Source of the DNA: Bacteroidota bacterium
GTDB taxonomy: Bacteria > Bacteroidota > Ignavibacteria > Palsa-1295
DNA length: 64,000 nt
Assembly: GCA_021324685.1 (NCBI GenBank)
Contig: JAJPIQ010000030.1
Span: forward strand, 1 to 64,000
Reading direction: 5' to 3'
Within the stretch, counting starts at the first letter, position 1. Each line of letters begins with the position of its first letter. Position numbers and translations under genes: made by a program. Below are positions 9,117 through 31,025 of this stretch, piece by piece. The notes under the pieces are model-generated. The model did no database searches, was not told where the DNA came from, and worked only from the letters and a program-made list of their open reading frames with translations.

Positions 9117-9314
9117 TTAGTTGTTGTCCCCGCTGCCAGTCTGCTCTTTCTCTTCGTTTGGGCTTCGGCGAATTACATCTTTTACCTGTTTCTTGTTTAG
9201 ACCGAAAACGTGCTTCATCCCACGCTCGAAGTTCAAGAACTCATCGCTCTTGTCATCGTCCTTCGCGGGTTCGGAATTGTTTTGATCGCTGGCTTCTTTC
9301 GGTTCGGTACTCAT
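9117..9314 (-). CDS. small charged accessory protein of a degraded IS1595 element
   Basis: A 65-residue, highly charged protein with a core FERGMKHVFGLNKKQVKDVI. It sits directly after the truncated IS1595 transposase with a 4-base ATGA-type overlap. An analogous 62-residue charged protein (FKSLLKRVATLSPEEVEEV) follows the intact transposase at 14416. The shared layout, an F..L/M..V..L....V pattern between acidic flanks, suggests a family-specific accessory peptide of these elements. Function is unknown. Confidence 0.55.
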   Translation of the reverse strand: MSTEPKEASDQNNSEPAKDDDKSDEFLNFERGMKHVFGLNKKQVKDVIRRSPNEEKEQTGSGDNN

Positions 9315-9715
9315 TGTTTAGTAGCTTTACCAGTTAGCTCATTCCATGTCAAACGCTTGCCGAAAATTTGCGACACGACGGTTTCAAAGCGGTTGCCGTC
9401 GTTGCCTTTGCGAAGATTGTAGCGCAAACACTCTTCGTCTAAGTAGCTATCCATGTGGAATGGAGCCATGTGAATGTACGTGCCCTTCACACGCCGTTTG
9501 AAAAGATTAAACCAGCCCTCGACAGTGTTGGTGTGAACGTTCCCACGTACATACTCTTTTTCCGAATGATTAACTGTCAAGTGTAAGTATTCGTGACTGA
9601 GTTGAGTATAACCCGGATGTTGATCGGTAAAAAGAATTGCTTCGTTGCTCACATTATCCCGAACGGTTTTTTGCGGCTCCGAGTATTGACGGATGTTCCA
9701 CCTTTTTTCAGCCAT
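9311..9715 (-). pseudogene. truncated IS1595-family transposase fused to an xre fragment
   Basis: The 134-codon frame is chimeric. From about residue 14 it encodes the last third of an IS1595-type DDE transposase (NTVEGWFNLFKRRVKGTYIH, DEECLRYNLRKG), corresponding to the region beyond about residue 205 of the intact 318-residue transposase at 14579. The first 13 residues (MAEKRWNIRQYSE) instead match the xre repressor encoded at 23736 (NEKGWNIRQYADQ). The zinc ribbon and the first catalytic residues are gone, so it cannot act as a transposase. Confidence 0.8.
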
Positions 9716-14118: not shown

Positions 14119-14126
14119 TAAATTTT
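14119..14126. repeat. left 8-bp target-site duplication
   Basis: TAAATTTT directly precedes the left terminal repeat and is repeated exactly after the right one at 18511-18518. Eight-base duplications are the rule for the IS1595 family. Confidence 0.93.
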
Positions 14127-14155
14127 CGGCATAACCCGGCTGACTCACCCTTGTC
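14127..14155 (+). repeat. left terminal inverted repeat
   Basis: Begins CGGCATAACCCGGCTGACTC and continues ACC-C-TTGTC. It pairs with the right end at 28 of 29 positions; the mismatch is the C at 14150. Confidence 0.93.
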
Positions 14156-14156
14156 G

Positions 14157-14399
14157 CTATGAATCGTATTTGGGGTCAATTTTACCAGTACCAGCACACT
14201 TAAGACAGCTCAAATGTCCCATGTGACCGCTTGCGGGATGGGGTGGCGTAACAATGTAACCGTTGCCACCACATTTGGGACACGGTATTTCTCGTAGTGA
14301 TCTTCGAATTTTAGACGAAGCCTTCCCGGTTGCCTCGGCGGACTTTGCAACGATAAGCCAAATGATTATTGCGACTATTAAACCAATCAACGCTTCCAT
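14157..14399 (-). CDS. membrane-anchored DnaJ-type zinc-finger small protein
   Basis: An 80-residue transposon passenger. One N-terminal transmembrane helix (LIGLIVAIIIWLIVA) is followed by a short basic linker and two CxxCxGxG-like motifs (CPKCGGNG and CLKCAGTG) that should bind one zinc, as in DnaJ central domains. It is the last gene of the leftward unit and ends two bases from the terminal repeat. It could be a membrane-located chaperone-like or redox partner; no function is known. Confidence 0.65.
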   Translation of the reverse strand: MEALIGLIVAIIIWLIVAKSAEATGKASSKIRRSLREIPCPKCGGNGYIVTPPHPASGHMGHLSCLKCAGTGKIDPKYDS

Positions 14400-14415
14400 G
14401 CCTATTCAAACAGGT

Positions 14416-14604
14416 TTAATTGGTGTGGTCTTCCGAATCGTCTTTCGGAGCGGGGACAGCACGCTTCACTTCCTCGACTTCTTCGGGGCTGAGGGTAGCA
14501 ACGCGCTTTAGGAGCGATTTGAACCGCTCGTTCGGGGATTGATCTTCCTCGTCTCGGTCGCTCTTGTTCGTCTCGCTTTTATCCGAAGGTTTTGAGTTCG
14601 TCAT
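14416..14604 (-). CDS. small charged accessory protein of the IS1595 transposon
   Basis: A 62-residue protein with acidic, Ser/Asp-rich flanks around FKSLLKRVATLSPEEVEEVKR. Its start overlaps the transposase stop by 26 bases in another frame, indicating co-translation. A similar-sized charged protein follows the truncated transposase at 9311. This recurring partner could regulate transposition; function unknown. Confidence 0.6.
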   Translation of the reverse strand: MTNSKPSDKSETNKSDRDEEDQSPNERFKSLLKRVATLSPEEVEEVKRAVPAPKDDSEDHTN

Positions 14605-15535
14605 ACGTAAGCCGTTTGCCAGCTACCATGCCGAGGACCGTTCGGAACCGAGTGGAGTCATCGGTTTTACGATAGTTATACCTGAACGACTGTTCGTCAA
14701 GGTAGCGATTCAGGTGAAACGGCTCTACGCTGATATACGTGCCTTTCAGTGAGCGTTTTAAGAGTGACCAATAGGATTCAATAGTGTTCGTCGTCACGTC
14801 GCCACGTACAAACTCGTTCTTACTGTGATCGACAAATTTATGGTCGTATTCGGAGCTAAGGACTCGATACGACATTAACGAATCACTGAACACTTTCGAA
14901 CCCGGCTCAACGACTTCCCTGATCTCCGGCACAAGGCTCCGGCGCTTCGCATTCAGCACAACTTTTGCGGTGACATTCCCTTCGCGTTGGAGAATTCCCA
15001 TTGCAATGGTTTTTGTCGTTCCCGCACCTCGCTTATTGGGAGTGCCGCGGCGGTTCGGATTTGTAAGGGTGCCTTTACGTGGCTTGCCGCCAATATAAGT
15101 TTCATCTACTTCAACAGTTCCCTTGAACTTTTCTATGGAACCAACTTTCATTGCGTGACGAACACGGTGTAACATGAACCATGCTGTTTCTTGCTTTATG
15201 CCAAGAGCACGGTGTATCTCATAGCTACTTACGCCGTTTTTGCAGTTCGCAATCATCCACATGCACACGAACCATTTATCGAGGCCGAGCTTCGTGTCTT
15301 CAAATATAGTTCCTACGATTACGCTGAACTGGCGCTTGCAATCGTAGCACTTCCAGACTTTGCGAGTGGAGAGCTTTTTGACATGCAGGGAACCGCAACG
15401 TTCACACACCGGAGAATCCCCCCAGCGAACTTCGGGTAAGAGGTTCTTGCAGACCTCAAGGTCTGAGTAGTAAAGGACGGCTTCTTGTAGGGTTCTCGGT
15501 TCCATTGATTGTTTAGCCATTTCGTTCATCCACAC
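14579..15535 (-). CDS. IS1595-family (ISXO2-like) transposase
   Basis: A 318-residue DDE transposase. The N-terminal zinc ribbon carries two CxxC pairs (CERCGS and CYDCKR). The catalytic domain has VEVDETYIGGKPRKG, VFSDSLMSYR, and NTIESYWSLLKRSLKGTY. These give the DDE/N residues and the His/Asn signature expected of the family. Length is typical. It is presumably responsible for movement of the 4.4-kb element. Divergent rightward passengers start across a 0.3-kb spacer. Confidence 0.95.
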   Translation of the reverse strand: MWMNEMAKQSMEPRTLQEAVLYYSDLEVCKNLLPEVRWGDSPVCERCGSLHVKKLSTRKVWKCYDCKRQFSVIVGTIFEDTKLGLDKWFVCMWMIANCKNGVSSYEIHRALGIKQETAWFMLHRVRHAMKVGSIEKFKGTVEVDETYIGGKPRKGTLTNPNRRGTPNKRGAGTTKTIAMGILQREGNVTAKVVLNAKRRSLVPEIREVVEPGSKVFSDSLMSYRVLSSEYDHKFVDHSKNEFVRGDVTTNTIESYWSLLKRSLKGTYISVEPFHLNRYLDEQSFRYNYRKTDDSTRFRTVLGMVAGKRLTYDELKTFG

Positions 15536-15796
15536 AATACTACGAATGCCGAAACGCTTTAGTTTCTAACTTATTTTAGAAAAAATAGGTTTACCAGAGA
15601 AAGGTATTAAAGTGGCCAAAACGATACAATTAAGAGGATTTATGCCATGTTTAATGGGGGCGTTCATGCAACAAAACTATTTTAAGTGAGAGCGGCTTGG
15701 GAATCCAGAAACGGAAACGACGGTTCTAACGCACGAATGCCGAGGGGCTAAATCCTCGGCATTCGAAAGTCTCAAAGAGACTGGATGAATCAGAAT
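15536..15796. promoter_or_regulatory. divergent control spacer with two hairpins
   Basis: A 261-base spacer between the leftward transposase unit and the rightward tRNA/passenger unit, so it should hold both promoters. At 15734-15765 a perfect 12-bp stem (CGAATGCCGAGG with its complement) encloses the loop GGCTAAAT. At 15768-15782 a second 6-bp stem (AGTCTC/GAGACT) has an AAA loop. They end 15 bases before the tRNA-like gene. Neither has a T tract, so a regulatory or processing structure is likelier than a simple terminator. Confidence 0.6.
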
Positions 15797-15883
15797 GGAG
15801 AGGCAAGCGTAATGGTGAACGCAATCGTCTTTAAAACGATCGACCCGTAATAGGTCTTGTGAGATCGTACCTCACCCTCTCCG
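15797..15883 (+). tRNA. class II serine-type tRNA-like gene, anticodon UUA (ochre suppressor candidate)
   Basis: A complete cloverleaf can be folded by eye. The acceptor stem is GGAGAGG/CCTCTCC (7 of 7) with discriminator G. The D arm is GCG/CGC with GG in a 10-base loop. The anticodon stem is ATCGT/ACGAT (5 of 5) with loop CTTTAAA. The long variable arm is GACC/GGTC with a 7-base loop, and the T stem is GTGAG/CTCAC (5 of 5) with loop ATCGTAC. The anticodon at 15831-15833 is UUA, which pairs with the stop codon UAA. Long variable arm, G73 and a tRNA-Ser-like acceptor predict serine charging. Oddities are C at position 8, an unpaired 10-25, and A54/U58 swapped in the T loop. CCA is not encoded; CTTTTTA follows. 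Confidence 0.8.
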
Positions 15884-15921
15884 CTTTTTACAACAGTCGT
15901 GTGCTGTTGTCAGTTTCGAAA

Positions 15922-16452
15922 ATGACGATGGATAGCAAATACAAGGTTGCAATTGAAGGGCTTTACGAGGAGCTTGAAGCACTCGCTGAGCAGTCGAAGC
16001 AGATCAAAGGTGCAATCAATACGCTGACCGTACGGAGCGGCGGTACTCCGCCATTCACTGACCTCGAACAGGCTCAATCTGCCAGAGGTGGAAGCATTCT
16101 GCCAGATCAGTTTTTCGGATTGCCGTTCATGACGGCAGTGAAAGCATACCTCAGACTCAAGGGTAGAGCCGCGCCTGCTAAAGAAATATTCGATGCCCTC
16201 AAAAGTGGCGGCTATGAATTTTCCGGTGACGAGAAGGTCCACTGGCGAGGCTTCACGATCAACATGAGCAAGAATAAAGGCGCGTTCGTGTACGTGAAGC
16301 CTTCTGATTCGTGGGGACTTCCCGAATTCTATCCGGGGTACAAGGCCAAGAAGGAGAAGAAGGGCGAAGAAATTGACGAAACCGAAAATGAATCGGAGGA
16401 CACAACCAATGAAGAAGCACCTGTAAATTCAAACGAAGAAACCGAAGCCTAA
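15922..16452 (+). CDS. winged-helix (HARE-HTH-like) passenger protein with acidic tail
   Basis: A 176-residue protein starting MTMDSKYKV; the upstream in-frame GTG at 15859 lies inside the tRNA and is rejected. A helical N-terminal segment (AIEGLYEELEALAEQSKQI) is followed by a winged-helix-like domain (FFGLPFMTAVKAYLRLKGR, AKEIFDALKSGGYEF ... WGLPEFYPGY). The tail is very acidic (KKEKKGEEIDETENESED). DNA binding is likely. The frame stops at UAA (16450), but continues through a second UAA to a UGA that overlaps the next gene's ATG. This makes it the prime candidate for readthrough by the neighbouring UUA-anticodon tRNA. Confidence 0.72.
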   Translation: MTMDSKYKVAIEGLYEELEALAEQSKQIKGAINTLTVRSGGTPPFTDLEQAQSARGGSILPDQFFGLPFMTAVKAYLRLKGRAAPAKEIFDALKSGGYEFSGDEKVHWRGFTINMSKNKGAFVYVKPSDSWGLPEFYPGYKAKKEKKGEEIDETENESEDTTNEEAPVNSNEETEA

Positions 16453-16542
16453 TCCGAGACCAAAGGCGCTCCCGAAGTGCCACGTTCCGAGGCCGCTTCG
16501 ATTATAGATCAGAGACCAAAAGTCGTTGAATAAAGAAGATGA
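16450..16542 (+). other. possible UAA-readthrough extension of the winged-helix gene
   Basis: After UAA at 16450-16452 the same frame encodes 26 more residues (beginning SETKGAPEVPR), then UAA at 16531-16533, then Arg-Arg and UGA at 16540-16542. The UGA overlaps the ATG of the GHKL gene at 16539 as ATGA. Without readthrough this is the only sizeable gap (86 bases) in an otherwise overlapping operon. The residue composition continues the polar, acidic tail. Readthrough is inference; the sequence and overlap are seen directly. Confidence 0.45.
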
Positions 16543-17585
16543 ATTCCCGTCTAAGATACCAGCGAGCGCGAGCGCGAGCCGAAGAACAGGCTCGCGCTCG
16601 CCGTAAAGCATGGATTAGATCTGGACGTCGAATTTCGAGGGCTCTTTATCCAGGAGAAACCCTCAATCTATCGCCATACCAAATAACGCTACTCCCACGC
16701 TCTTCCCTGATCGACTCACCAGATTTACTAATTGACCAGCTACGACTCTTTCGGAAACAAATAGAAATGAGAAGGAACGTGTTGCTCAATATGCGGGATG
16801 TTCGAGATATTGGAAGTGATGCTATCGCCGTAATCTTAGCGTGTCTCAAATCTGCTGTTAGTAGAATCAGTGTTTATGGTCGCTGGCCATCCTCTCAGAT
16901 TGCAATAGCAAAGCTTGTTAATTCTGGCTTTCCACAGCAGGTGAGCACGAGAGTAAATTTTCCAATCAGTGAAAACGCAATGTTACTTTTTGCGGTCGAT
17001 AGACGAGTCCTTACCCAAAAAGCGCGAGAGATTGCTTTATTCGCATTGAGACATTCCCGGCCGGAATGTTGCGATGATTTGATTCTGGATGCAATAGCGG
17101 GAACCATCGGAGAATTTATGCAAAACACTTATGACCATGCTGTACTCGATTCTTTCGGACAAGAACCCCCGCTTGCTGATGACCGAATGGAATGGGTTGT
17201 CCACGCAGAATTCGTTCCGGAAACACGCGTTACTCATATTAGCTTTGTCGATCTGGGAGTGGGTCTTTTAGGGAGCATTATTCTAAGGAATAAAGTGCTC
17301 GCTACTCAACTTGCCATAGGTATGAAAAACGATTCGGCAATTGTAGGAAAAATCATGCGGGGCGAAATTAAAGTACCTTCGCGAACTGGAGACCCCCGTC
17401 GCGGTGTTGGGTTGCCGTTGATTCACAAACACTATGAATCTAAGCACATCGGCCGCCTCATCGTCATTTCAAACCGCGCATTCGTCGATTTCGAACGCGC
17501 AGGGCAGCCGCGTGATCTCAGAATCCCATTTCCGGGCACTTTCATGTATTTCGAAGTCAGACCAACCGATGGCCAGCCAGCTTGA
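16539..17585 (+). CDS. GHKL-type ATPase with N-terminal STAS-like region
   Basis: A 348-residue soluble protein. A very basic N-terminus (RYQRARARAEEQARARR) precedes a STAS-like alpha/beta stretch (about 78-125, NVLLNMRDVRDIGSDAI). A histidine-kinase-like ATPase domain follows with N box EFMQNTYDH (E192, N196), G1 box FVDLGVGLLGS (D238, G240, G242) and G2 box RRGVGLPLI (about 287-295). No phosphoacceptor-His domain is seen, so it resembles anti-sigma-type or MORC/GHKL switch ATPases rather than a full sensor kinase. It overlaps the DUF4325 gene by 17 bases, implying a functional pair. Confidence 0.82.
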   Translation: MNSRLRYQRARARAEEQARARRKAWIRSGRRISRALYPGETLNLSPYQITLLPRSSLIDSPDLLIDQLRLFRKQIEMRRNVLLNMRDVRDIGSDAIAVILACLKSAVSRISVYGRWPSSQIAIAKLVNSGFPQQVSTRVNFPISENAMLLFAVDRRVLTQKAREIALFALRHSRPECCDDLILDAIAGTIGEFMQNTYDHAVLDSFGQEPPLADDRMEWVVHAEFVPETRVTHISFVDLGVGLLGSIILRNKVLATQLAIGMKNDSAIVGKIMRGEIKVPSRTGDPRRGVGLPLIHKHYESKHIGRLIVISNRAFVDFERAGQPRDLRIPFPGTFMYFEVRPTDGQPA

Positions 17586-17904
17586 GGTCATATATTTGAA
17601 AGATTTCGCTCTTTCCCCAGGGGGCCGCGATGTTGCTGGAGGCCCCAATTCTGGAGAACAGTTTCTAAAAGAGGTTTTGGAACCAGCCTTCCTTCGTCAT
17701 CGCCACGAGGAGGGTTACATTCTTGTTAATCTCGATGATGCGGCACCCGTGATTTCATCTTTCCTCTATGCTTCATTCGGTGAGCTTGCAGTAAAATACG
17801 GTGTCGATGAGGTAGAAAAGAAAGTACACGTTCTTTCTACTCAGGTCCCGATGCGCGTAACAATGGTTCAGAATCAATACGACAAGGTGCGGAAGAGGTC
17901 GTAA
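17569..17904 (+). CDS. DUF4325 (STAS-like) protein
   Basis: A 111-residue protein with the DUF4325 pattern: LKDFALSPGGRDVAGGPNSG near the start, EEGYILVNLDDAAPVISSFL centrally, then FGELAVKYG. STAS-like domains often work as binding partners of GHKL ATPases, and this gene overlaps the ATPase gene upstream and the 2-TM gene downstream (TAATG). The ATG at 17569 is chosen because the family homology begins immediately after it. A role as antagonist or adaptor of the ATPase is inference. Confidence 0.78.
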   Translation: MASQLEVIYLKDFALSPGGRDVAGGPNSGEQFLKEVLEPAFLRHRHEEGYILVNLDDAAPVISSFLYASFGELAVKYGVDEVEKKVHVLSTQVPMRVTMVQNQYDKVRKRS

Positions 17905-18461
17905 TGCTCGCGAAGCAGCTTGCTACAGGCATTGCATGTCTGCTCGGTGTTGTGACGATTTGCCTCATGGTCAACATGACCATGAAACAGGAATATGATC
18001 CCTTCGTCATAATGGGCCTGGTTATTAATGCCATTGTGGCATACCTGCTCTTTCAATTTACGCAACGTGCGGATTTTGGTAAGAACCATAAACTCCTACT
18101 CGTCGCCGATATTCAATCTATTATTGAATCGTTGAATAGACTGCAAACTGACGTGCTAACGAATTCCGACTTTGGTATTAAACAGCGCGGGTTAGCTTTG
18201 GAGGAAATTTCTATTACCATCTCCGATCTGAAGGACGTAGCCGAATGCTCGGCTATTGATTTAGCCACGCTGTCTCTCGACAATATAGGACCGCTCTTCC
18301 TTTCTTATATGGACATCGTAACCTCGGATTTTGAAAGGACACTACCAAACCGGTTGTCAGAGACGTTCCTAAGCGAGTTGACCACTGCGTACCGTATCCT
18401 TCGCTCTGCGTTGCTAAGACTTCGCCTTGATATTCATTCTTCCAGTTTAAGAGATTTCTGA
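17904..18461 (+). CDS. two-helix membrane protein with helical cytosolic domain
   Basis: A 185-residue last gene of the passenger operon. Two transmembrane helices (ATGIACLLGVVTICLMV and FVIMGLVINAIVAYLLF) are followed by about 120 residues of soluble, mostly helical sequence (LLVADIQSIIESLNRLQ ...). Its ATG overlaps the DUF4325 stop (TAATG). Small 2-TM proteins are common output modules in bacterial signalling and defence operons, so a membrane effector controlled by the ATPase/STAS pair is plausible; unproven. Confidence 0.68.
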   Translation: MLAKQLATGIACLLGVVTICLMVNMTMKQEYDPFVIMGLVINAIVAYLLFQFTQRADFGKNHKLLLVADIQSIIESLNRLQTDVLTNSDFGIKQRGLALEEISITISDLKDVAECSAIDLATLSLDNIGPLFLSYMDIVTSDFERTLPNRLSETFLSELTTAYRILRSALLRLRLDIHSSSLRDF

Positions 18462-18481
18462 CAATGGCCACTTGTCTCATA

Positions 18482-18510
18482 GACAATGGTGAGTCAGCCG
18501 GGTTATGCCG
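18482..18510 (-). repeat. right terminal inverted repeat
   Basis: Reads GACAA-T-GGTGAGTCAG onward to ...TTATGCCG on the plus strand, the reverse complement of the left end except one base at 18487. Confidence 0.93.
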
Positions 18511-18518
18511 TAAATTTT
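18511..18518. repeat. right 8-bp target-site duplication
   Basis: TAAATTTT, identical to 14119-14126. Confidence 0.93.
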
Positions 18519-20677: not shown

Positions 20678-21448
20678 CTATTGTAAGGCTTCGTTGAAAG
20701 GCATGTTCTTTCTCACTTGAACAGTGTCAAATCTCAATGTTGCACCCTCTATCGCATCTTTAACTACGGTGCAGCGATATTCGTATTCGCCGTGACCTGG
20801 GATATAAAATTCCAATTCATATTCCTTATACTTATCAATGTGACTGAAGATTTCACGTCTCATTACGCTCCTCTCAACAATAGTCGTTTGCCCTCGAAAT
20901 TGTTGTGCACGAACAGGATCAAACACGCTCTCATTCATCATTACGTCGAGCCTTAAACAGATTTCCGCGTCATTCGCGATATTATTTCCTTTGATTCGAA
21001 ATATAACCTTGTAATTACCGGGTTTACCAAAATCATTCACGTAAGGACCATAGATTGTGCAATCTCCTTCACTATCTTTTACTTTTATATCGCTCCATTC
21101 CCAGGCCTTTTTGCTTGCCGCATTTGCATCCGCATCCGAGACTTCATGGCCAAAAGAGTGGCGAAGTTTTCCCTTAATAGTTCCAGATTCGTAGCAATCA
21201 TATTGATGAATCAGAGAACGGCCAAATTTCCAAATATAGAAAAGCTTAAGTAGAGAGCGCAGTAATAAAGCACCTACTGCGCCGAGGAAAGCGAAAATCC
21301 AATCAGTCTCCGACTTCCCACCCGTTTGGACGGAATGCATGATACTGTCTTTACATGCCTGCGTAAATTGAAGTAATAACATATAAGGTAAAACTGCATA
21401 GGGTTCGGTTTCTGGAATCAGTCCTTCGATGGCATGGATTCGGTGCAT
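20678..21448 (-). CDS. membrane protein encoded after the reverse transcriptase
   Basis: A 256-residue protein whose ATG is preceded by a strong AGGAGG seven bases upstream and overlaps the reverse-transcriptase gene by 31 bases. Hydrophobic segments near 15-30 and 50-66 (WIFAFLGAVGALLLRSLL) suggest membrane anchoring. The rest is a soluble, mixed alpha/beta domain with YGPYVNDFGKPGNYKVIFRI. I do not recognise a family. Coupled translation with the RT makes it the likely effector or partner of that system. Confidence 0.72.
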   Translation of the reverse strand: MHRIHAIEGLIPETEPYAVLPYMLLLQFTQACKDSIMHSVQTGGKSETDWIFAFLGAVGALLLRSLLKLFYIWKFGRSLIHQYDCYESGTIKGKLRHSFGHEVSDADANAASKKAWEWSDIKVKDSEGDCTIYGPYVNDFGKPGNYKVIFRIKGNNIANDAEICLRLDVMMNESVFDPVRAQQFRGQTTIVERSVMRREIFSHIDKYKEYELEFYIPGHGEYEYRCTVVKDAIEGATLRFDTVQVRKNMPFNEALQ

Positions 21449-22224
21449 CCACCCCTCCTAACATATTTTTGATAACCGAGTAGTCCCTTATGCCGATTGC
21501 TCCCCGGCTCGGCATTCTTGATTTTTTCTTCAAATGCAGGAGTCGTCGATAATGAATTATTGAGAATTCGTAAGCCAGTGTATTCAATTGGTCCGATTTT
21601 ACTTCGAGTCTTTTTTCGTTTTGGTTTTTGGCCATATCGACGAATTGCAGCTATACTCAGACCAATCCGATCATTGAGGATTGGGCGAGAGTCAGAGGCG
21701 ATAATATCGTCCATTACTCGCCGAGTTGATGGCCCCATAATGGCAGCAATCTCTTCGTCGAGCGGCTCAAGCACAAGATTCACGATGTAACTACTAGTCG
21801 AAACTCCTTGCGGAACCGATCCCTTGAACGTGGTCAAGCGGGTAAGATAGCGTGCCACAGTGAATGAAAATCCTCGACGGATAAACATGTCATAGACCAT
21901 CTGACTTGTGATTGAAGGGAAGCAATCGGTGAGATCAGTCTTCCAATGATACTTTTTGCCTCGATGCGCATTTGCTGCTCTTACATGATCTCTTCCTTTA
22001 ATTCCGCCATATGCATACGGAGACCGGATCATGTGAACCAAAATTCGCTCCTTAATCTGAAACTGCAAGTAGCGAAGAGCCCCTTGGCTCGTGGTTATTG
22101 GCCGCTCCTTTGTCGTTCCATTTGCGCTGGTCGTTTTCTCTAATCGAGTGTGATAGTAACGATCTACATCGTTACATATAAGTTCGAGTTCTTCGATGGC
22201 GATTCCACGCAAAATGAAGAGCAA
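21418..22224 (-). CDS. reverse transcriptase (retron/DRT-like)
   Basis: A 268-residue RNA-directed DNA polymerase core. Motif A is KTDLTDCFPSI and motif B is VPQGVSTSSYIVNL. The catalytic motif C reads VMDDI instead of the usual YxDD, so both Asp remain but the Tyr is Val. An EYTGLRI segment resembles the VTGL motif of retron enzymes, and GLLGYQKYVR suits the thumb. TTG 22224 is chosen because RT-like sequence begins there, just after the XRE stop; the longer frame (to 22332) overlaps the XRE gene with unrelated sequence. No maturase or endonuclease domain is present. Confidence 0.8.
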   Translation of the reverse strand: MLFILRGIAIEELELICNDVDRYYHTRLEKTTSANGTTKERPITTSQGALRYLQFQIKERILVHMIRSPYAYGGIKGRDHVRAANAHRGKKYHWKTDLTDCFPSITSQMVYDMFIRRGFSFTVARYLTRLTTFKGSVPQGVSTSSYIVNLVLEPLDEEIAAIMGPSTRRVMDDIIASDSRPILNDRIGLSIAAIRRYGQKPKRKKTRSKIGPIEYTGLRILNNSLSTTPAFEEKIKNAEPGSNRHKGLLGYQKYVRRGGCTESMPSKD

Positions 22225-22237
22225 ATGGCGAATCGAC

Positions 22238-22540
22238 TCAACTGACCCCTTCGAGTTCAAACAATTTTGCAAAGGCCGTCCGGATTTTCGGCCTAATCTT
22301 AACGAATTCTTTCCGCCGTGTTGATGTGACATCTTCAGGTTCGAGCGCCAGCGCGAATACTAATCCGATTGGTACATGAAGCTCCCTCGCGATCACGCGA
22401 AGCGCTTGCTGCGAAGCTTCCCGTTTGTTGTTCTCTATTTTTGATAAGTAAAAAACCGACATTCCGGCACGTTCGGCAAGAGTTTTTTGGGTTAATTGTC
22501 TTGCCTCGCGAATCTCCTTTATAACTTTGCCAATATCCAT
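22238..22540 (-). CDS. XRE-family helix-turn-helix protein of the RT operon
   Basis: A 100-residue protein with a canonical Cro/C1 HTH (IKEIREARQLTQKTLAERAGM ... KIENNKREAS) at 7-60 and a short C-terminal extension. It lies between a small gene and the reverse transcriptase on the same strand, with its stop about 13 bases before the RT start. It is probably an autoregulator of the operon, or a DNA-binding partner as in retron types that carry an HTH protein. Confidence 0.88.
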   Translation of the reverse strand: MDIGKVIKEIREARQLTQKTLAERAGMSVFYLSKIENNKREASQQALRVIARELHVPIGLVFALALEPEDVTSTRRKEFVKIRPKIRTAFAKLFELEGVS

Positions 22541-28218: not shown

Positions 28219-28544
28219 CCTACAAAGAAGCCGAAAAAGTTCTCGAAAAGCACGGCACATCGAATGCCACAGGTGACGCGCTCACGGCTATGAATGCCGA
28301 TTGCATAGAGTACCACTACTCTCTTTTTGCAATGGCTTCCACCGCCGGAAAACACCGGCTTGCCCCAAAGCTATACACATGGGCGCAGCGATTCGGGTAC
28401 AACCTTTTCGAGATTTACCGCGCGCTTGGGAAAGAGGCTCAGGCGGCGCGAAAACGCGGGGAAGTCCTCGCGCCGGAAATCCACTGGATCGTTTGGAACG
28501 CCGTGCTTGGAAACGAGCCGCTTCCAACGACACTCACATTCTGA
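28215..28544 (+). CDS. 109-residue hypothetical protein
   Basis: Starts MTYKEAEKVLEKHGT in the repeated AAAGGAGAACACCCATGA junction. Mostly helical (FGYNLFEIYRALGKEAQAARK) with an aromatic C-terminal half (IHWIVWNAVLG). No domain recognised. Followed after 16 bases by another AAAGGAGAACACC-type start region. Confidence 0.62.
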   Translation: MTYKEAEKVLEKHGTSNATGDALTAMNADCIEYHYSLFAMASTAGKHRLAPKLYTWAQRFGYNLFEIYRALGKEAQAARKRGEVLAPEIHWIVWNAVLGNEPLPTTLTF

Positions 28545-28560
28545 AAGGAGAACACCGACC

Positions 28561-28815
28561 ATGCCACGAACGAAAACGACGAAGCCGAGTTCCTCCGCCT
28601 ATCGAGATAGACCGACTTTCCGAGGCCCGAACTTCACTTATTTGGAAGGCGAGACGCTACTACGGCGCAACATCGGAGCGCAGTACTTCGGGTTCCGATT
28701 CGGCGGCTTTCTTATCTTTCCGATCAGCGACGACGACAACGAAACGCGCTTCTCGATCAGCTTTGCTTCGGAATACGAGCGCGACAAATTTATCAAAGCA
28801 CAAGGAGTAAAATAA
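28561..28815 (+). CDS. 84-residue hypothetical protein
   Basis: ATG 28561 is preferred because AAAGGAGAACACCGACC precedes it; the frame is open much further upstream but there only mirrors the previous gene. Basic N-terminus (MPRTKTTKPSSSAYRDR) then beta-rich FGFRFGGFLIFPISDDD. Could be a small nucleic-acid-binding protein; no family seen. Confidence 0.62.
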   Translation: MPRTKTTKPSSSAYRDRPTFRGPNFTYLEGETLLRRNIGAQYFGFRFGGFLIFPISDDDNETRFSISFASEYERDKFIKAQGVK

Positions 28816-28817
28816 CC

Positions 28818-29192
28818 ATGCCAACAAAAACAGCATTGCACTTTTCAGACATTGCCAACGGCCGCGACGATCCCCCAGGAGTACCGGCAGAGCATACACC
28901 GACACCGTGGTTTATCAAGCACCCATGCTCGCCTGGGAAAGACTACGATTGTGAGGATGTTTCCATTCGTTCGGACGAACGCGGCCAACTGGTAACCAAG
29001 GTTCGCCGTCGCTTCCCAAACGATGAAGGAGACGCTGCCTTCATCGTCCGCGCCGTCAACAACCACGATGATTTAGTGCTGATTGCCGAAAAGCTTCTCT
29101 ACTTCACAACACAGGACCGGAAGCCGATGGGCATCGAACTGGATTTTGTCCGAGACACCCTCGCCAGAGCGAAAGGAGAGAAGGCACGATGA
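28818..29192 (+). CDS. phage-type hypothetical protein
   Basis: A 124-residue protein with HTPTPWFIKHPC near residue 25 and DAAFIVRAVNNHDDLVLIAE at about 73-92, a pattern seen in many phage and plasmid proteins of unknown function. Its TGA overlaps the next ATG. It supports a phage/plasmid origin for the cassette. Confidence 0.72.
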   Translation: MPTKTALHFSDIANGRDDPPGVPAEHTPTPWFIKHPCSPGKDYDCEDVSIRSDERGQLVTKVRRRFPNDEGDAAFIVRAVNNHDDLVLIAEKLLYFTTQDRKPMGIELDFVRDTLARAKGEKAR

Positions 29193-30157: not shown

Positions 30158-30343
30158 ATGGCAAAAAACTCGCCATCTGGCTTTCAGTACACCTACGCCC
30201 CTGACGATAGTATAAGAGTTGGAAACGACGACCCTTCAGCGAGAACCATAGGAGATTCTTCAATGAGAACGAGCTTAATAGCGGAGCAAAAAAATGAACA
30301 AGGCACACATTTATCTTCGGGTCTCAAAAGAAGATCAATATGA
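30158..30343 (+). CDS. possible 61-residue protein overlapping the recombinase start
   Basis: ATG 30158, one base after the previous stop, opens MAKNSPSGFQYTYAPDDS and overlaps the recombinase gene by 50 bases. No ribosome site is clear. It could be a leader region instead of a gene. Confidence 0.3.
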   Translation: MAKNSPSGFQYTYAPDDSIRVGNDDPSARTIGDSSMRTSLIAEQKNEQGTHLSSGLKRRSI

Positions 30344-31025
30344 TCCCGGACACGGTATTGACGCACAAGAGCGCGATTGTCTGATTTCTGCTGGCAGACT
30401 TGGTATCACAGATAATGCCAGTATCCTACTTTATCCGGACCGAGACGTCAAAAGCATTACGGAAATACACAAACGTCCCCAGTTGACACGTTTGCTTTCG
30501 GAGATCGGTGCAGGGGACTATCTCATTTATCAGCATCGTGATCGCCTCGCACGCGATCCCGATATCACGAAAATTATTACAAAAATTGTGCATGGCAAAA
30601 AGGCTTTTTTGTTCGATGCGCGACTCGGCATCGTTAAGGACGAGCCGGAAGACATACTCCTCAACGGCATTCTCGATCTCCATGCGCAGTATGAACGTCA
30701 GCAGATAGCCCGCCGATGCAAAGCTGTTTCCGCCATGCTCAAGGCCAAAGGGGTATGTTATGGCACGGTCCCATATGGTTTCGCTCTATCGCGGGACAAA
30801 AAGCTTATACCTGATCTGCGAGAGCAAGCGGCCATTGAGTATATCGTTCAGCTGTCAGAGGCAAACATTGCGACTCGTACGATAGCCACGATGCTGAACG
30901 AAGCTGGCTATCGAACCAGAGGTTCCCGCAAACTTGGGACTGATCTCGCAAGTGGGAACAATGGCGGAAGCTGGACAAAAACGCAGGTCATTCGCATTCT
31001 TCAACAATTTTCGTCGCGGCACTAA
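30294..31025 (+). CDS. serine recombinase/resolvase
   Basis: A 243-residue serine-family recombinase. The N-terminal catalytic domain has YLRVSKEDQ with the nucleophile Ser at about residue 10, then LIYQHRDRLARDP with the conserved Arg pair at about 81-86. A DNA-binding Recombinase-type region follows (GTVPYGFALSRDKKLI, IATMLNEAGYRTRG, WTKTQVIRILQQ). Shorter than large serine integrases, it probably resolves or inverts DNA for the element. Confidence 0.87.
   Translation: MNKAHIYLRVSKEDQYDPGHGIDAQERDCLISAGRLGITDNASILLYPDRDVKSITEIHKRPQLTRLLSEIGAGDYLIYQHRDRLARDPDITKIITKIVHGKKAFLFDARLGIVKDEPEDILLNGILDLHAQYERQQIARRCKAVSAMLKAKGVCYGTVPYGFALSRDKKLIPDLREQAAIEYIVQLSEANIATRTIATMLNEAGYRTRGSRKLGTDLASGNNGGSWTKTQVIRILQQFSSRH

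Follow-up and report, generated by a model that had tools for sequence, protein, structure and literature searches.

A serine-type tRNA with a stop-codon anticodon is passenger DNA of an IS1595-family transposon and has counterparts in other mobile elements

A tRNA gene whose anticodon, UUA, is complementary to the stop codon UAA lies as passenger DNA inside an intact IS1595-family transposon of a Bacteroidota bacterium (class Ignavibacteria; assembly GCA_021324685.1, contig JAJPIQ010000030.1). The transposon occupies positions 14127-18510 (4384 bp) of the 64,000-nucleotide stretch of DNA analysed here, which we call the window. Two leader hairpins stand directly 5′ of the tRNA, and a gene for a protein with a coiled coil and a winged helix-turn-helix (wHTH) follows directly 3′. 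Unrelated transposons of the IS1595 and IS1 families, in bacteria and phages, repeat this arrangement of leader, tRNA and wHTH gene. This pattern suggests that mobile DNA repeatedly takes stop-codon-reading tRNAs as cargo and that the present case is not one genome's oddity. The features of the window element are as follows.

14119-14126: target-site duplication, left copy (8 bp, TAAATTTT)
14127-14149, plus strand: left terminal inverted repeat, CGGCATAACCCGGCTGACTCACC (23 bp perfect; 28/29)
14579-15535, minus strand: IS1595 (ISXO2-like) transposase, 318 amino acids, intact (Pfam PF12762, E = 1.6e-37; PF12760, E = 1.6e-11)
15734-15765, plus strand: leader hairpin P1, a 12-bp perfect stem with an 8-nt loop (GGCTAAAT)
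15768-15782, plus strand: leader hairpin P2, a 6-bp perfect stem with a 3-nt loop
15797-15883, plus strand: class II serine-type tRNA, anticodon UUA, G73, CCA not encoded
15922-16452, plus strand: coiled-coil and winged-helix (HARE-HTH-like) protein with an acidic tail, 176 amino acids, directly 3′ of the tRNA
16539-17585, plus strand: PHROG 3364 protein (function unknown), 348 amino acids, E = 4e-22
17434-17904, plus strand: DUF4325 STAS-like protein, E = 6.9e-6
17904-18461, plus strand: 185-amino-acid protein without a Pfam match, the last gene of the element
18488-18510, minus strand: right terminal inverted repeat, 23-bp perfect partner of the left repeat
18511-18518: target-site duplication, right copy (exact 8 bp, TAAATTTT)

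The ends were located by a scan for inverted ends flanked by an 8-bp duplication, which returned 14127-18510 as its single result; no other perfect 18-mer inverted pair spanning 300 bp to 10 kb occurs in the window. Like other IS1595-family insertion sequences, the element combines a PF12762/PF12760 transposase (DDE_Tnp_IS1595 with a zinc ribbon), terminal inverted repeats with an 8-bp target-site duplication, and passenger genes, and its transposase was aligned with three relatives. Transposase and cargo reading frames are full length and free of in-frame UAA, and two genes of the element stop at UAA. By eye, the PHROG 3364 protein looks like a GHKL-type ATPase. The DNA of the transposase and the tRNA is present in a single copy in the genome and is absent as such from the 12 other genomes of the order. 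A second IS1595 transposase is represented in the window by a C-terminal fragment (9311-9715, minus strand), 49% identical to the intact copy; a reverse transcriptase (RVT_1) reading frame (21418-22332, minus strand) and a serine recombinase (30294-31025, plus strand) lie in the same variable region. A tmRNA called by ARAGORN at 28508-28874 (minus strand; tag AESEPEVLRSDVAP) is not supported by Rfam at its gathering score and is probably spurious.

The cloverleaf at 15797 is real and has a class II serine-type body. The preliminary description of this DNA, made from the sequence alone, had proposed a cloverleaf with all arms paired, and three analyses bear this out: ARAGORN calls a tRNA-Stop with anticodon TTA at 15797-15884; Rfam RF00005 matches at 36.3 bits (gathering score 29), whether the region alone or the whole genome is searched; and RNAfold gives -29.6 kcal/mol where shuffles give -19.8 (z = -3.3), none of 200 shuffles folding as well. 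The default filtered Rfam scan of the 64-kb window did not pick up the tRNA. Its acceptor (7 bp), anticodon (5 bp), T (5 bp) and variable (4 bp) helices are perfect, and the 7-base anticodon loop CTTTAAA retains U33 and presents UUA. The serine-type assignment likewise stands, supported by the long variable arm, G73 and an acceptor stem (GGAGAGG/CCTCTCC) that, together with G73, equals that of host tRNA-Ser(GCU, CGA, GGA). The T loop ATCGTAC, noted earlier as weak, indeed departs from the usual TTCRANN and lacks the canonical T54/A58, and position 8 is C, as had been read, in place of the canonical U8. An A-A opposition described at 10-25 disappears once the D arm is read as a 3-base linker, CAA, followed by a perfect 4-bp stem, GCGT/ACGC. 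With this reading all seven helices of leader and tRNA (P1, P2, acceptor, D, anticodon, variable and T) are perfectly paired. No class II tRNA in the genome has a lower covariance score. With its odd T loop, C8 and 36 Rfam bits this copy may decode UAA poorly, and because the T loop is odd, efficient decoding is uncertain.

The host uses the standard code and the UUA tRNA is an extra, because the ordinary tRNA set is full (47 further matches above the cut-off, all ordinary serine and leucine species among them) and UAA ends 21 of the 55 window ORFs. The same two observations rule out a reassignment of UAA to serine in the genome or the island, for which the anticodon alone speaks. Since UAA is the most frequent stop in the window, unrestrained suppression should be costly.

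The leader folds far better than expected by chance (z = -5.6), and hairpins of this kind accompany most transposon-linked tRNAs. In the window and in loci L113, L380, L394, L422, L441 and L092, the tRNA, or the first tRNA, is preceded at a distance of 15-35 nt by a long hairpin, often with a short second one following it. Perfect leader stems of at least 9 bp precede 6 of 8 transposon-linked tRNAs versus 14 of 183 controls. The stem sequences are unrelated among elements; therefore pairing and not sequence is conserved. The AlphaFold2 model of the protein encoded next to the window tRNA (pLDDT 72) has a winged helix together with a long helix, and its acidic tail is disordered. A Pfam search of this protein gave no HARE-HTH match, and its top PDB hits, to RNA polymerase delta, are weak (profile E = 0.0024; Foldseek E = 0.014). 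Delta consists of a HARE-HTH domain with an acidic tail; the window protein shares the acidic tail and adds an N-terminal coiled coil. Members of its family, compared in an alignment, come from phage contigs and from genomes of Bacteroidota type within the same phylum; one is the wHTH protein that stands alongside hairpins and a tRNA in the IS1 element L441, where wHTH gene, leader, tRNA and transposase all lie within one pair of inverted repeats. Two further relatives, L133 and L135, are neighbours of an IS1 transposase; in L133 an IS1-type end motif precedes the gene. In L113 and L202 the protein encoded next to the tRNA appears by eye to combine a coiled coil with a wHTH and is not alignable with that of the window. 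The tRNA and the wHTH gene are separable, because L380 has no clear accessory protein and the relatives at L133-L135 have no tRNA, and an obligate partnership is thereby ruled out. The preliminary description had recognized the class II UUA serine-type tRNA and overlooked the transposon, the two leader hairpins and the wHTH gene; its suggestion of a regulated tRNA gains indirect support from the hairpins and the adjoining gene.

To find further examples, we ran pattern scans of genomes and viral contigs and filtered the results with ARAGORN, which removed most raw hits of the genome scan as chance matches or the reverse strand of normal tRNA-Ser. Besides phage contigs, an Acidobacterium (L092) and a proteobacterium (L113) yielded class II UUA tRNAs. 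IS1595 transposases adjoin the UUA tRNA in L092, L113 and L202. The L113 element, whose ends were read in L474, spans 2959 bp between target-site duplications (GAAAAAAG) and contains transposase, hairpins, tRNA-UUA and wHTH gene. In L092, 35-bp inverted repeats surround the transposase and two class II tRNAs in tandem, one UAU and one UUA, and in the phage contig L202 the tRNA-UUA lies beside a coiled-coil wHTH gene in an element with 117-nt inverted repeats. Tandem UAU and UUA class II tRNAs are seen both in this Acidobacterial transposon (L092, 1365-1549, minus strand) and in phage contig L062 (8059-8242, minus strand). IS1-family transposases lie 135-142 nt downstream of tRNA-UUA in L157/L380 and in one phage family of four contigs (L236, L239, L252 and L378, equal to L394-L397), the distance in the latter being 135 nt. 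The L380/L157 element is 1323 bp long, with 17-bp perfect inverted repeats and target-site duplications (AATCTCCC) enclosing leader, tRNA-UUA and transposase. Exact 8-bp duplications thus flank two parallel elements (L113/L474 and L380/L157); a search for ends with a duplication in L092, L202, L422 and L394 found none, and L441 has inverted repeats without a detected duplication.

The T loops of the tRNAs in L092, L113, L380, L394 and L202 are ordinary, and their anticodon loops are intact. Lack of homologues had been named beforehand as an argument against the window tRNA; well-formed tRNAs in the same arrangement occur elsewhere. The linked tRNAs have serine- and leucine-type bodies, leucine-type UUA tRNAs among them, and UAA reading is not universal, as the anticodons UAU, GCU and AGU also occur. 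At the nucleotide level the window tRNA has no homologue in the 12 other genomes of the order, and a strict pattern built from its exact sequence found no match. BLAST against phages and plasmids returned only the tRNA-Ser(UGA) of cyanophage S-PM2, by similarity of the body; its D-arm architecture is like that of the window tRNA. This S-PM2 gene (L014, 2002-2089; 102852-102939 of the Synechococcus phage genome) is unannotated in a well-studied genome record.

The association with transposases was compared with that of other tRNAs. Among viral loci, a transposase of the IS1595 or IS1 family lies within 1.5 kb of 6 of 14 class II UUA tRNAs, from three independent families, versus 1 of 318 other tRNAs, the sole control being the second tRNA of L202. 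Among genome loci the counts are 2 of 2 versus 1 of 40, and here the one control is the UAU tRNA of L092. Transposases of these families adjoin none of 20 class I UUA tRNAs of phage contigs. Those contigs (L475-L541) hold about 20 such tRNAs, some of them alone and two in L484, and ochre-type tRNAs in phages look commoner than usually stated. The strongest bias in the comparison is that most examples came from a search for UUA in class II spacing. A scan of IS1 loci that was blind to tRNAs, with transposase queries taken partly from UUA loci, found a tRNA at most 150 nt upstream at 7 of 80 viral loci. These represent four tRNA-carrying families, two with UUA, both also in the UUA-search set, one with GCU in a class I body (L441) and one with AGU (L422). 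IS1595 is not a general tRNA carrier, with a UUA tRNA at 1 of 116 viral IS1595 loci, and most IS1 and IS1595 elements have no tRNA.

In both families, the slot occupied by the tRNA is elsewhere filled by toxin-antitoxin or anti-phage genes. The likeness of the tRNA to a toxin-antitoxin or addiction module is one of cargo slot. Sister IS1 and IS1595 elements carry a HigB-like toxin, HTH/M78 proteins matching PD-Lambda-2, SocA/Panacea and PIN-like genes. The IS1 group in phage contigs (L380-L459) has ends GGTAGTG...CAGTTTGA, usually with an exact 8-bp target-site duplication. Near position 4856 of L401 an IS1-type element apparently interrupts a phage tRNA-Trp gene in its 5′ part, with the 8-bp duplication GGATTTAG. 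A separate tRNA-like gene (L051, 101-199; G000:C4:58230-58328) scores 51.7 Rfam bits without an ARAGORN call and has a hairpin of about 25 nt in its anticodon loop; it looks like a small intron or a broken tRNA.

Our preferred reading of the window gene, which we hold tentatively and at somewhat less than even chances, is an element-borne, silenced, serine-charged UAA-reading tRNA that serves element maintenance or defence. Leucyl-tRNA synthetase does not need the anticodon of its tRNA. The same is true of seryl-tRNA synthetase (PMC7609411), so that a tRNA of either type could accept its amino acid and still read UAA. The host seryl-tRNA synthetase would recognize the long variable arm and G73 and ignore the anticodon, and the charged tRNA would insert serine at UAA. 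The leader hairpins and the HARE-HTH-like protein would hold transcription or maturation of the tRNA low until a trigger, such as phage infection or loss of the element, released it. Read-through would then spread at UAA, the commonest stop, and harm translation of host or phage, to the benefit of element maintenance or defence. Counting against this reading are the features of the window copy that may weaken decoding, the separability of RNA and protein, the other anticodons among linked tRNAs, the many IS1 and IS1595 elements free of tRNA, and the two genes of the window element that stop at UAA. That IS1595 and IS1 elements carry an RNA-based module for maintenance or defence, in which a UAA-reading class II tRNA is the effector, hairpins and often a HARE-HTH-like protein restrain it, and release leads to read-through, is a wider proposal that we regard as rather unlikely.

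The odd T loop of the window copy favours the main rival, a tRNA-shaped, non-decoding RNA that would offer a scaffold to the wHTH protein, the transposase or RNase P and control expression or transposition of the element. We think it unlikely, though a serious contender: the helices are perfect, yet T loop and linker depart from those of ribosomal tRNAs; L133 and L459 have hairpins beside a wHTH gene at which no tRNA was found; and some irregular transposon-linked allo-tRNA(UAU) reportedly resisted charging by Escherichia coli enzymes (PMC7609411). Against such a scaffold speak the ordinary T loops and intact anticodon loops of the five loci named above, and serine and leucine bodies, whose synthetases ignore the anticodon, fit a requirement for continued charging, with the qualification that the search favoured class II. 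A quite improbable alternative is that the gene is a functionless relic, a phage-type tRNA-Ser caught by chance in a transposon and now decaying. The lowest covariance score among the genome's class II tRNAs, the non-standard T loop and the phage-like D arm fit that account, whereas decay should break pairs and all seven helices are perfectly paired; moreover, the same composite recurs in unrelated elements. Lastly, the tRNA might serve the element's own expression by letting ribosomes pass an in-frame UAA within one of the transposon's genes. Past its UAA stop, the wHTH frame continues for 27 open codons, and UAA ends 1 of 10 predicted genes of well-formed carriers versus 31% in sister elements, which is possibly avoidance. 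However, transposase and cargo frames are complete without any in-frame UAA, and in a GC-matched comparison stop usage of carriers is not significantly different. UAA avoidance is accordingly suggestive only, and we consider a role in the element's own expression very improbable.

The closest known system to the silenced UAA-reading tRNA that we favour is the allo-tRNAs (Mukai et al. 2017, via PMC7609411), described there as serine-type class II tRNAs with non-serine anticodons, UAU being common and an ochre member reported. That account also describes an allo-tRNA(UAU) pseudogene in an Acidobacterium that overlaps a transposon-related ORF, and a link to transposons or toxin-antitoxin systems suggested in 2017 (PMC7609411). 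The window tRNA likewise joins a serine-type body to a non-serine anticodon. Allo-tRNAs are, however, defined by an 8/4 or 9/3 acceptor branch, and the window tRNA has 7 bp + 5 bp, as C8 cannot pair with C65. The carriers described here differ further in being delimited by inverted repeats and target-site duplications, in their leader hairpins and wHTH partner, and in including leucine-type UUA tRNAs. Phages, among them crAss-like phages, also keep suppressor tRNAs with stop anticodons without evident recoding (PMC12386605); those are amber or opal, whereas the present tRNAs are ochre, class II and inside IS1 or IS1595 transposons. Toxin-antitoxin cargo has been described in Tn3 family transposons (PMC7157771) and defence cargo in Tn7 (PMC8649781). 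The HigB-like, Panacea, PIN and PD-Lambda-2 genes of the sister elements resemble such cargo, but in the elements described here the slot holds a structured RNA that ends in a tRNA. In the open-licence papers searched, we found no description of tRNA cargo in IS1595 or IS1 elements.

Stop-anticodon and off-code tRNAs of no apparent use are known from phages and soil metagenomes. Their presence in delimited transposons with a repeated leader-tRNA-wHTH layout provides small, testable units of 1.3 to 4.4 kb. Should the tRNA prove to be such an effector, mobile DNA would be using a tRNA against translation termination, a new form of genetic conflict.
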